Source of the DNA: Arboricoccus pini
GTDB taxonomy: Bacteria; Pseudomonadota; Alphaproteobacteria; Geminicoccales; Geminicoccaceae
Assembly (NCBI RefSeq): GCF_900187945.1
Contig: NZ_FYEH01000011.1
Span: 62,001 to 126,000, forward strand
Reading direction: 5' to 3'
Length of the DNA: 64,000 bases
Position numbers and translations under genes: made by a program. Shown here piece by piece: positions 15,994-57,538 of the stretch. Each line of letters starts with the position of its first letter. Position 1 is the stretch's first letter. Below the pieces are notes generated by a model, which had not been told where the DNA came from, did no database searches, and was given only the letters and a program-made list of their open reading frames with translations.

Positions 15994-16196
15994 CAACCTC
16001 CCATATCGTACCCGGCCTCAGCGAGGCCGCTGTCCGCAGCCCTCCGTCTTTTTTGCGCGAAGGTAATTGCTGCAGAACCATTACAGACCCGAAACGATCT
16101 GTTTAACAAGACGGAAAATGCGCTCTTTGGTCACAGGCTTGCTAGCGGGCAAGGAAGGTTTTTTGCCGTATATCCGCTTGACTTAAAGAAAAAGCG

Positions 16197-46244: not shown

Positions 46245-46271
46245 GCGCACCAGCCAACGATGCGAGATCCC

Positions 46272-46970
46272 ATGAGCGAGAACGAGCTGTTTGCCGCACT
46301 GCGCGAGGTGTCCACCGCCACCTTGACCACGGTTCTTTTGAAGAAGGGGCTGCGCTCCACCTGGATGCGCGGCACGCGTCCGCTCAAGCCCGGGCAGGGG
46401 CGGCTGGTGGGGCCCGCCTTCACGTTGCGCTTCGTGCCCGCACGCGAGGATCTGGCAACCCCGGCCTCCTGGTCCAATCCGATCTCGACGCGCTCGGCAA
46501 TCGAGGCGATGCCGGAGGGTGTCATCACTGTGGTCGATGCCATGGGCGTCAAGGATGCCGGCATCTTCGGCGACATTCTTTGCGCCCGCATGCAAAAGCG
46601 CGGCGTGACCGCCCTCGTGACCGATGGGGTCGTGCGCGACGCCGCCGGCGTCATTGCCTGCGGCCTGCCCGTCTGGTGCGACGGTGCGGCGGCACCGCCT
46701 TCGGTGGCCGGACTCACCTTCATCAATTGGCAAGAGCCCATCGGCTGTGGCGGCGTAGCGGTTTTCCCGAATGATATCATCGTCGTCGATGACGACGGCG
46801 CTGTCCTGATTCCCCAGGCCATGCTGGCCGAGGTGACGGCGGCGGCCGTTGAGCAGGAGCGCCTCGAGGCCTGGATCATGACCGAGGTGGAGAAGGGCGC
46901 GGCTCTGCCAGGGCTCTATCCACCCAACGCCGAAAACAAGGCACGCTACGATGCAACCCGCACAAGCTGA
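46272..46970 (+). CDS. RraA-like / HMG-aldolase family protein
   Basis: 232 aa from the ATG at 46272 (an ATG at 46260 would add four residues). The RraA fold is evident from TATLTTVLLKKGLR, the DAMGVKDAGIFGDILCARMQKRG segment with the Gly-Asp metal loop, and VTDGVVRDAAGVIACGLPVW, where the Asp/Arg pair supports divalent-metal aldolase or decarboxylase activity. FPNDIIVVDDDGAVLIP is the family beta region. True RraA inhibits RNase E in enterobacteria; members elsewhere are usually 4-hydroxy-4-methyl-2-oxoglutarate aldolases or oxaloacetate decarboxylases, which I consider more likely. Divergent from soxB. Confidence 0.85.
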   Translation: MSENELFAALREVSTATLTTVLLKKGLRSTWMRGTRPLKPGQGRLVGPAFTLRFVPAREDLATPASWSNPISTRSAIEAMPEGVITVVDAMGVKDAGIFGDILCARMQKRGVTALVTDGVVRDAAGVIACGLPVWCDGAAAPPSVAGLTFINWQEPIGCGGVAVFPNDIIVVDDDGAVLIPQAMLAEVTAAAVEQERLEAWIMTEVEKGAALPGLYPPNAENKARYDATRTS

Positions 46971-47044
46971 CGTTTAAGCTTTTCAGGGGACGATTGCACC
47001 GCCGACGCGTTGATCGCGCATTGGCGGTAGCCTGGAGGACGGCG

Positions 47045-47359
47045 TTGGTATCGCGACTGGTATCCGTGCGCATTGACCATCAACTAGGACGGGATGACGC
47101 ACGGCGGCGACTACAGGCCGGGATCGCCGATGCACGTGCCCGGTTCGGCGACAAAATCTCGATGATCGACGAAAAATGGCAGGGCGATCATCTTGATTTC
47201 CGCGTTAGAGCACTTGGCCAGTCGATCGAGGGTACGATGGACGTGGCCGAAGATCACGTTCAGCTTGAGTTCACCCTGCCCGCACTGCTCGGTATGCTCG
47301 GGGGCAAGGTGAGATCATACTTGCAGGCCAGCGGTACGCGCCTGCTGGGAAAAAGCTGA
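47045..47359 (+). CDS. Polyhydroxyalkanoic-acid system family protein
   Basis: 104 aa. The PHA_gran_rgn pattern is visible: VSVRIDHQLGRDDARRRLQAG, WQGDHLDFRVRALGQSIEGTM and LPALLGMLGGKVRSYLQASGTRLL. These small proteins are encoded near polyhydroxyalkanoate granule genes or alone, and their role is unproven; the fold resembles lipid- or ligand-binding START-like pieces. The start is a TTG at 47045 six bases after a strong GGAGG (47034-47038); the frame is open further upstream without a ribosome-binding site. No PHA synthase or phasin is in the window. Confidence 0.85.
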   Translation: MVSRLVSVRIDHQLGRDDARRRLQAGIADARARFGDKISMIDEKWQGDHLDFRVRALGQSIEGTMDVAEDHVQLEFTLPALLGMLGGKVRSYLQASGTRLLGKS

Positions 47360-47420
47360 AAAAGACGGTCAAAAAAATATAAAAACCGGTTAATGCCGCA
47401 CCGCAGTAGGCCAAATGTAC

Positions 47421-47461
47421 GGCAAAAAACATACCCTGGTATGGAAAAATAATTTTTTGCC
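47421..47461. repeat. Nested palindrome in AT-rich intergenic DNA
   Basis: Outer perfect arms GGCAAAAAA (47421-47429) and TTTTTTGCC (47453-47461) enclose an inner perfect inverted repeat CATACC-CT-GGTATG (47430-47443). Transcribed rightward, the T-run in the outer arm could make it a terminator for the upstream gene; transcribed leftward it shows the same A/T tracts. It could equally be a cruciform or regulator site before the 98-aa gene. Confidence 0.55.
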
Positions 47462-47470
47462 CGAAAAATC

Positions 47471-47557
47471 GTGATCACATGCACGCGACCGCGTTTTCGC
47501 TCTTCCAAAGATGTATCTTTACGGCGATGCTACTTACGGTTGTATGAGCGGCATACA
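47471..47557. promoter_or_regulatory. Cluster of three short palindromes before the 98-aa gene
   Basis: GTGATCAC (47471-47478), AAAGAT-GT-ATCTTT (47507-47520) and TGTATG-AGCGG-CATACA (47541-47557) are all perfect. The last ends six bases before the GGAG ribosome-binding site and could fold in the mRNA leader or bind a regulator. Together with the nested palindrome just upstream they make this leader unusually symmetrical. Confidence 0.4.
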
Positions 47558-47574
47558 GCAATTGGAGTGACGCC

Positions 47575-47871
47575 ATGGGAGCCCTTCTCGCGCACGCTCT
47601 TTCCGAAGAGGAGCAATGGACCGAGCAGGACCAACCTTTGTTGCTCTCGGTCGATGATCTGATCGTAGACGCCAACGGCGAGATCGTTATTTTCAGCGGC
47701 GATGGTATCGACGCCGTAACGCTCACGGGTGCCACCGTCACCCATACTGGGCGGGTCGAATTTCACCGCACTGCGGCTGGTGACGATGTCGCCGGCTTTC
47801 AATTTCTCACCTTCGACAACGGTATGACGATCTTCCACGATCCGCAGCTTCGTGTCACCGTAACGGACTAG
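47575..47871 (+). CDS. Small acidic protein of unknown function
   Basis: 98 aa. The N-terminal third is acidic (LSEEEQWTEQDQPLLLSVDD), the rest alternates hydrophobic and polar residues as in a beta sandwich (NGEIVIFSGDGIDAVTLTGA, TVTHTGRVEFHRTAAG, FLTFDNGMTIFHDPQLRVTV). There are no cysteines, signal peptide or membrane helix. No family recognised; the GDGID turn is reminiscent of calcium-binding repeats, but a single copy proves nothing. GGAG lies seven bases before the ATG, so translation is likely. The AT-rich, palindrome-rich 215-base leader suggests tight regulation. Confidence 0.65.
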   Translation: MGALLAHALSEEEQWTEQDQPLLLSVDDLIVDANGEIVIFSGDGIDAVTLTGATVTHTGRVEFHRTAAGDDVAGFQFLTFDNGMTIFHDPQLRVTVTD

Positions 47872-47923
47872 GGTCGGGGCGGCAGAACCCCAGCTCCGAC
47901 CGGGATAGGGGATGTCCTGACGG

Positions 47924-48745
47924 ATGAGCGAGACGGTGTCTGCGAACGAGACGAGGGCAACCGAGGCGGCGATTAAGGCGCGCTTCGAGTTGGCAGCGAC
48001 GATAGCGCTGGAAGCAGGCCGGCATGCTTTCGCGGCCTGGAAAGAGCGTGACCAGTTGACGATCGACGCCAAGACGAGCGCGCAGGACGTCGTCTCTAAT
48101 GCCGACAAGGAGACCGAGACCCTCATCCGCGCTCGCGTCGGTGCAGCTTTTCCAGATGACGGCTTCATCGGCGAGGAATTTGGAGAGAGCCCCGGCCACT
48201 CGGGATTCGTCTGGGTCTTGGACCCGATCGACGGAACGAGCCCCTTCGTCTTCGGACTGCCCAGTTGGTGCGTCTCGATCGCGGTGATGCTGCAGGATGA
48301 CGTCAAGATCGGCATCATCCACGCGCCGGTGCGCGATGAGACATTTAAGGCCATGAGCGGCAAGGGCGCCTGGCTGAACGACGTACCGCTACGCCTCGAT
48401 CCGAACCGCACGCTGACCGACGGTCTTTTGGGCGTGGGCGCCAATCTGCGGGTCGACCCGGCGCTCATCGCCAGCTTCATCGAGCGGCTGATGCGCGCCG
48501 GCGGCATGTTCATCCGCAACGGCTCGGGTGCCTTGATGCTGGCCTACGTCGCAGCGGGCCGACTGGTTGGCTATTACGAACCTCACATCAATGCCTGGGA
48601 CTGCCTGGCCGGTCTTTGCCTGATCCGCGAGGCGGGCGGCTGGACCGAGCGCTTCCCACACGCAGCTCCCCTTTTGTCAGGCAGCCGCATCATCGCGGCG
48701 ACGCCTGCAGCACGCGCGCAGTTGCTCGATCTCATCGCCGCCTAG
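47924..48745 (+). CDS. Inositol monophosphatase family protein
   Basis: 273-aa Mg2+-dependent phosphatase. SNADKETETLIRARV and FIGEEFGES provide the metal-binding Glu, WVLDPIDGTSPFVFGLPSWC the signature DPIDGT motif, and HINAWDCLAGLCLIREAGG the second signature with the catalytic Asp. Substrates in the family include inositol phosphate, histidinol phosphate (HisN), PAP and fructose bisphosphate; sequence alone does not choose. It lies 52 bases after the small unknown protein and is convergent with an MFS gene. Confidence 0.92.
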   Translation: MSETVSANETRATEAAIKARFELAATIALEAGRHAFAAWKERDQLTIDAKTSAQDVVSNADKETETLIRARVGAAFPDDGFIGEEFGESPGHSGFVWVLDPIDGTSPFVFGLPSWCVSIAVMLQDDVKIGIIHAPVRDETFKAMSGKGAWLNDVPLRLDPNRTLTDGLLGVGANLRVDPALIASFIERLMRAGGMFIRNGSGALMLAYVAAGRLVGYYEPHINAWDCLAGLCLIREAGGWTERFPHAAPLLSGSRIIAATPAARAQLLDLIAA

Positions 48746-56731: not shown

Positions 56732-57538
56732 TCAATGCCCAAAGAGCATGTCGTTGATGCGCGTCTCGAGCTGGCTCTGTCTGGCCGTGCCGAGCTCGGA
56801 GGGATCGAGGCTGTTCAATTCGGCCTTCACCCGGCCCGGATGCGGCGAGAGAAGGAGAATGCGCGTGCCGACCCGAATAGCCTCCTCAATCGAGTGCGTG
56901 ACGAACAGAACGGTAAAGCGCGTGTCCTCCCAGAGACGAAGAAGCTCGTCTTGCATCTTGCGGCGGGTGAGGGCGTCCAGAGCGGCAAAGGGTTCGTCCA
57001 TCAAGAGCACGTCCGGCTCCATGGCCATGCCGCGGGCAATGGCGACGCGCTGCTTCATGCCGCCCGAGAGCATGTGGGGATAACTGTCCTTGAACTTGGC
57101 CAGGCCCACTTTCTCGATGTAGTAATCGGCCCGATCCGTCGCGGCCTTGCCACTTAGCCTCTTGCTCGCAAGGAGTGCGAACTCGACGTTCTGCTGGACG
57201 GTCTTCCAGGGGAGGAGCTGGTCGAATTCCTGGAAGACCATCATCCGGTCGGGTCCGGGCTCGGTGACTGTCCGACCCTTCAAGGCAATCTTGCCCTCGA
57301 CGGGCTTCATATAGCCACCGATCGCCTTCAGGAGCGTGGACTTGCCGCACCCCGAAGGACCGAGCAGGATGTAGCGATCCGAGGGATAGACGGTAAGGTC
57401 GACCCGGTGGGTCGCAGTGATCAGAAGATCGGTGGTCTTGTATTGCAGGGTTACCCCCTCGACCGTCAGAAGCGGTGTCGGTGCGGCGCACTTCCCTGCC
57501 TCCACGCCGCTCCAGGCGAATGCATCTCGTGCTTCCAT
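56732..57538 (-). CDS. ABC transporter ATPase (SsuB/TauB/NrtD type)
   Basis: 268-aa cytoplasmic ATPase. Walker A is GPSGCGKST, the Q-loop MVFQEFDQLLPWKTV, the signature LSGGMKQRVAIARG, Walker B VLLMDEPFAALDALTR and the H-loop VTHSIEEAI; FQEF instead of FQ[DE]x is normal in this subgroup. It heads the operon for a nitrate/sulfonate/taurine-type importer. The ATG at 57538 follows AAGGGAG. A GC-rich hairpin lies directly upstream in its leader (57554-57573), and the gene is divergent from a two-component system. Confidence 0.95.
   Translation of the reverse strand: MEARDAFAWSGVEAGKCAAPTPLLTVEGVTLQYKTTDLLITATHRVDLTVYPSDRYILLGPSGCGKSTLLKAIGGYMKPVEGKIALKGRTVTEPGPDRMMVFQEFDQLLPWKTVQQNVEFALLASKRLSGKAATDRADYYIEKVGLAKFKDSYPHMLSGGMKQRVAIARGMAMEPDVLLMDEPFAALDALTRRKMQDELLRLWEDTRFTVLFVTHSIEEAIRVGTRILLLSPHPGRVKAELNSLDPSELGTARQSQLETRINDMLFGH

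Follow-up and report, generated by a model that had tools for sequence, protein, structure and literature searches.

Type I secretion systems of the LssB/LapB type export large surface proteins, and the retention module of LapA-type adhesins is a small beta domain tied to export of the LapB type; we take the LssB-type loci recognised by TIGR03375 to be equivalent to LapB. The FecR fold is also a small beta domain, as is that of the protein family described here, which we met through one gene in the window, by which we mean the whole 64,000-nucleotide stretch of Arboricoccus pini DNA that was analysed. One branch of this family forms part of type I secretion loci, where its gene stands directly behind tolC (TIGR01844) and divergent from the genes for an LssB-type ABC transporter (TIGR03375) and an HlyD protein (TIGR01843). 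The window copy does not share this setting: it lies elsewhere, in a genome that gave no TIGR03375 match among the candidates scored, and its protein carries no Pfam domain. Unlike the LapA-type retention module, the members of the family are free-standing proteins. As for substrates of the RTX type, the window protein has no RTX repeats recognisable by Pfam (0 families at E up to 1). FecR domain proteins are encoded next to one subgroup of the family, but the profile-profile comparison, made against three FecR relatives only, lent no support to a kinship with FecR (probability 0.4% over 22 columns).

Within the window, the gene for the 98-aa protein stands on the + strand in a row of genes with the same orientation, preceded by an RraA-like gene and a PHA_gran_rgn-type gene and followed by an inositol-monophosphatase-like gene (Table 1). 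The 215 bases in front of it, here called the leader, have a GC content of 44.2%, where 215-base tiles of the window average 65.4%, so that the sharp contrast in composition noticed from the sequence alone is borne out. They are the most AT-rich spot of the window, with only 0.06% of tiles equally low. Of the 23 intergenic stretches 100 bases or longer that a crude GC-based gene caller delimits, the leader is the poorest in GC and the densest in palindromic arms of at least 5 bases. A second AT-rich intergenic dip lies at window positions 15997-16196 and holds the lowest 215-base tiles outside the leader (0.48-0.52 GC).

Table 1. Features of the leader and its flanking genes (window positions)
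Feature	Position	Strand	Remarks
RraA-like gene	46260-46970	+	
PHA_gran_rgn-type gene, 121 aa from TTG	46994-47359	+	Pfam PF09650, E 4.7e-16
AT-rich intergenic leader, putative promoter region	47360-47574	+	44% GC
Palindrome AACCGGTT	47384-47391	none	loop-less 8-base class, not above chance
Nested inverted repeat, 9-base outer and 6-base inner arms	47421-47461	none	hairpin, -11.2 kcal/mol
Nested repeat, outer arms GGCAAAAAA / TTTTTTGCC	47421-47429 / 47453-47461		
Nested repeat, inner arms CATACC / GGTATG	47430-47435 / 47438-47443		
Palindrome GTGATCAC	47471-47478	none	loop-less 8-base class, not above chance
Inverted repeat AAAGAT-GT-ATCTTT	47507-47520	none	
Inverted repeat TGTATG-N5-CATACA	47541-47557	none	immediately 5' of ribosome-binding site
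Likely ribosome-binding site GGAG	47564-47567	+	read from the sequence, before ATG 47575
Gene for 98-aa acidic beta-domain protein, unnamed alphaproteobacterial family	47575-47871	+	core at about residues 20-97
Inositol-monophosphatase-like gene	47924-48745	+	Pfam PF00459, E 6.1e-51; 52 bp 3' of the 98-aa gene, possibly co-transcribed

The sequence-only reading had described the leader as packed with perfect palindromes, and every element that it named was found; AACCGGTT starts one base earlier than given there, at 47384 instead of 47385. Perfect arms of at least 6 bases with a loop of at most 6 number five, where 2000 dinucleotide shuffles give 0.42 on average and a fraction of 0.0005 of them reach as many, and arms of at least 5 bases number eight against 1.61 (fraction as high 0.001). 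Two of the five longer arm pairs are A/T tracts. The loop-less 8-base palindromes AACCGGTT and GTGATCAC are not above chance (2 against 1.25 in shuffles, fraction 0.35), and a 9-base arm with a loop of at most 45 arises in 5% of 500 shuffles. Five arms of at least 6 bases are reached by 0.67% of 597 window tiles. The excess of palindromic arms is thus real but moderate, moderate because the stretch was picked out of 64 kb.

The 98-aa protein is a member of a family of small acidic beta-domain proteins that has as yet no name. It has a pI of 4.1 and is predicted to be rich in beta strands, in agreement with its first description as acidic and beta-rich. The accompanying statement that it has no recognised family stands for the named collections, with no match to the window protein in Pfam (0 families at E up to 1) or NCBIfam, and fails in so far as the protein has many relatives. 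These are present in 30 of the 31 genomes of its taxonomic family, the Geminicoccaceae, including all 22 of good quality; the 29 genomes other than its own carry them at no more than 48% identity (BLAST), and its own genome holds two paralogues (the copies C14 and C25), of which one is 42% and the other 31% identical to the window protein. A scan of named genomes with the window protein alone gave no match, and the same scan with an alignment gave 21 loci, titled Geminicoccaceae (including Geminicoccus flavidas and G. harenae), Alphaproteobacteria, Pseudomonadota, one Rhodospirillales bacterium and Bacterium HR40.

A profile, A1, made from an alignment of 20 rows, was searched in 385 genomes drawn from the class, and 4 genomes of the taxonomic family gave confident matches, as did 12 that belong to seven other families. 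Each of these 12 genomes has a best match of 3.5e-20 or better, and together they hold 19 places with open frames of 90-166 aa. The window copy scores 110 bits (E 1.7e-31), being itself a row of A1; the weakest confident match, at 3e-5, is a second copy within the taxonomic family that was later seen to lie behind tolC, and the next match listed is at 0.006. All members in the sets listed occupy short open frames, of at most 253 codons from stop to stop. A resemblance of the core to the repeat domains of giant adhesins found no support: none of the large open frames among the 12 candidates scored per genome in the 385 genomes matched A1 confidently. The shared core reads LxDLIxDxNGEIVLFNDS...HxTAxGxDVSGFxFVxFxNGxTLYY, and the window copy carries over its own core the motif DxxGEIV...TAxGxDVxG...NGxTLY, by which membership was judged. 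Cores are acidic (median pI 4.1, n = 62), and 51 of the 62 are without cysteine. No convincing match to members of the family came from Pfam, NCBIfam or PHROGs; weak matches in Pfam, NCBIfam, PHROG and PDB sequences, confined to single members or chains with E above 0.001, were set aside. Literature searches, which covered the openings of abstracts, brought up no description of the family, which has no name to search by.

Structure prediction and homology search, both proposed with the first description, yielded a confident beta domain and the many relatives, and no Pfam or NCBIfam name. The AlphaFold2 models show a seven-strand domain, predicted with a mean pLDDT of 87.1 for the window protein and 89.4 for a second member, and the order of the seven strands is identical in both. 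A Foldseek search with each of the two models returned no PDB match at E 0.001 or better, and the best results of the fold searches, Z 4.2 (5tov, rmsd 4.6, 67 residues) and Z 3.6 (5axa, rmsd 6.0, 68 residues), are ordinary background. Matches at background level do not establish a new fold for these predicted structures.

The link of one branch to type I secretion is strong and specific to that branch. Among 14 second copies detected by sequence alone, 12 stand directly behind tolC on the same strand with the ABC gene divergent, and the HlyD gene is next in 11 of these 12 loci, the twelfth ending at a contig end. The two not behind tolC are the C25 copy of A. pini and one in a genome (G014) where a member and an LssB locus are both present, but apart. 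A scan of LssB loci added a fifteenth second copy, also behind tolC, which brings the count to 13 of 15; in these 13 loci the distance from the tolC stop to the first candidate start is 80-280 bases. In one further genome the sole copy found (L033) lies behind a tolC fragment as well. Tests on six example proteins bore out the identity of the machinery (TIGR03375, TIGR01843 and TIGR01844). Within the taxonomic family, TIGR03375 at E 1e-200 occurs once each in 24 of the 31 genomes; three of these 24 loci end at tolC with their contig, and of the 21 that show the stretch behind tolC, 12 have a detectable member there and 9 do not. Outside the taxonomic family, where all 19 places in the 12 genomes were fetched, LssB-like ABC and HlyD genes lie within 10 kb of the member at four (L103, L115, L116/L149 and L117/L162), in four genomes of four families, and the other 15 places are without such machinery in the stretch fetched; neighbour counts at these places are lower bounds, because several contigs end close to the gene.

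The window copy, unlike 13 of the 15 second copies, is not encoded beside tolC, an LssB-type ABC gene or hlyD, nor does it have the surroundings typical of the first copies in Geminicoccaceae. The 64-kb window has no match to TolC or HlyD, and its only ABC component, 9 kb away at 56756-57499, is the ATP-binding portion of a generic ABC protein. Among the 25 of 172 candidates scored in its genome there is no TIGR03375 match at E 1e-200, and the matches listed there to the L103 transporter start no earlier than its residue 250 and lack its N-terminal part. Around the C25 and C14 copies, too, about 20 kb shows no such machinery. In the other member loci checked, no PHA_gran_rgn or phosphatase gene stands beside a member, the sole match being a weak phosphatase 8 kb off at one locus. 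In the tree, the nearest row to the window copy is the C14 copy; both branches are long and the order of the forks is not fixed. The window copy may have arisen by an old duplication or have been acquired.

From the sequence alone, the leader had been put down as an attenuated or regulator-controlled leader, a remnant of a foreign insertion or a hub for binding proteins. Of these, a control region fits the position, which is 215 bp of intergenic DNA before a gene that ends 52 bp from the next one. Attenuation is not supported. It would require that the nested hairpin (47421-47461) end transcripts of the PHA_gran_rgn-type gene and that an alternative fold let them through, and we judge this very unlikely: the 56-base piece holding the hairpin is somewhat more stable than chance (-11.2 kcal/mol; z -2.1 on the + strand and -2.4 on the - strand), but the T run sits inside the 3' arm of the hairpin itself, the whole leader folds as its shuffles do (z 0.11 on + and -0.28 on -), and the scan of 47360-47574 found no intrinsic terminator (a G+C-rich stem with a T run behind it) on the + strand. 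One terminator-like site lies on the - strand at 47490-47473, and the whole 1.1-kb scan gave 2 sites against 1.0 expected. A known Rfam element or a repeated intergenic element was rejected as well: a search of 46900-48000 with a cut-off of E 5 gave 0 Rfam matches, and the genome showed no second copy of the leader, only partial matches of 15-19 bases (best E 0.41). It is also unlikely that a regulator controls the 98-aa gene by binding repeated GTATG/CATAC half-sites, paired at 47430-47443 and 47541-47557. Once the A/T tracts are set aside, two of the remaining three long palindromes have the half-site in common, and arms of at least 6 bases exceed chance; yet the common half-site was spotted post hoc, GTATG-N5-CATAC occurs at 2 places in the 4.07-Mb assembly against 1 for the reversed control, and CATACCNNGGTATG, from the nested repeat, is found at this site only even with one mismatch allowed (reversed control 1). 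A regulon sharing either palindrome is thereby rejected, both patterns being at chance level genome-wide, which also speaks against the proposed binding hub. Neither pattern occurs in 59 other leaders of the family, and the six named motifs are absent there bar one GTGATCAC. That the palindromes are not conserved in relatives that keep the gene had been named beforehand as a finding that would refute the sequence-only reading; it holds here as a weaker test, since the 59 are leaders of other loci, the same locus having been found in no relative. In all, leaders of 60 of the 62 distinct members were scored, that of the window included, with the first ATG of the frame as a crude start. The L033 leader, without a motif in common with the window leader, is the sole other among the 60 with five arms of at least 6 bases. 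The palindromes of the leader are real but are not a conserved element.

The remaining proposal, a foreign insertion at 46994-47871 comprising the PHA_gran_rgn-type gene, the leader and the 98-aa gene between the RraA-like and the phosphatase genes, is a possible origin for the leader, though we consider it improbable. Both genes are lower in GC (0.60 for 46994-47359 and 0.57 for 47575-47871), and the PHA_gran_rgn protein has a BLAST match in 1 of the 31 genomes, that of the window itself; there is also a plasmid-borne relative, 40% identical, in Methylobacterium aquaticum. Against this stand the absence of tRNA genes from the window, of direct repeats from 46900-48000, of any phage match and of a second leader copy; the closeness in the tree of the 98-aa protein to the C14 copy of the same genome, with the fork order not fixed; and the AT-richer leaders that also precede the other copies of this genome (GC 0.46 for C25 and 0.54 for C14). 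For two members of the 98-aa protein's family that were searched, no plasmid-borne relatives were found. The leader is most likely a promoter and leader region of the ordinary kind, specific to its lineage; a consensus scan restricted to sigma-70-like promoters found none in it.

As a lineage-specific promoter region, the leader would serve as promoter and 5' leader of the 98-aa gene and probably also of the inositol-monophosphatase-like gene behind it, and its short palindromes would be candidate local operator or hairpin sites. By itself the leader adds little, and the protein family matters more. It is widespread, with members in 30 of 31 genomes and in seven other alphaproteobacterial families, it is nameless in Pfam and NCBIfam, and the gene order of one branch ties it to a complete type I system. 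Gene order suggests that the family aids or rides export of the LssB/LapB type; members linked to tolC may act in type I export, either by being exported themselves as small surface components or by assisting a large exported adhesin. The window copy would then be a paralogue that has moved and diverged, in a genome in which the search brought up no LssB-type transporter, and it may have kept a role at the surface or envelope without such a transporter or have taken on another. We give the combination of a lineage-specific promoter, a branch tied to type I secretion and a relocated, diverged paralogue in the window somewhat less than an even chance of being right as a whole. A further-reaching idea, which we hold tentatively and think rather unlikely, is that alphaproteobacterial LssB-type systems have in this family a dedicated small component that has so far escaped description, be it a helper, an anchor or an exported partner, and that the family has spread also to loci with c-di-GMP enzymes, FecR or RHH_4 genes and to stand-alone copies such as that of the window. 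If true, a dedicated small component would offer a handle on how large surface proteins are exported and held in these bacteria.

Away from tolC, the members of the family have other neighbours. Among 21 loci of first copies in Geminicoccaceae, some of which end early at contig ends, 16 have speE nearby and 15 a hybrid histidine kinase. The C14 copy of A. pini has lepA on one side and an amidohydrolase gene on the other, and this amidohydrolase also follows the member in five of the 21. In four others of the 21, downstream of the first-copy gene, the histidine kinase is followed by genes for a spore-coat-U protein and a PapD-type chaperone. At the 19 places outside the taxonomic family, a gene of the RHH_4 type (ribbon-helix-helix, some with PAS) is within 1.5 kb at ten (L104, L105, L106, L108, L110, L112, L115, L116, L118 and L120; three of the ten by Pfam, the rest by similarity). 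FecR-type genes adjoin four members (L107, L109, L111 and L113; Pfam on L113, the rest by similarity), and CHASE2-type genes adjoin five (L106, L108, L110, L112 and L121; Pfam on L106 and L121). In L106, L108, L110 and L112, from the four genomes found of one genus, a CHASE2-GGDEF-EAL-like gene is divergent from the family gene (Pfam on L106). In one genome, type VI secretion genes of the Hcp type and ClpB-like genes follow the family gene (L104, 2135-3200 and 3324-5996).
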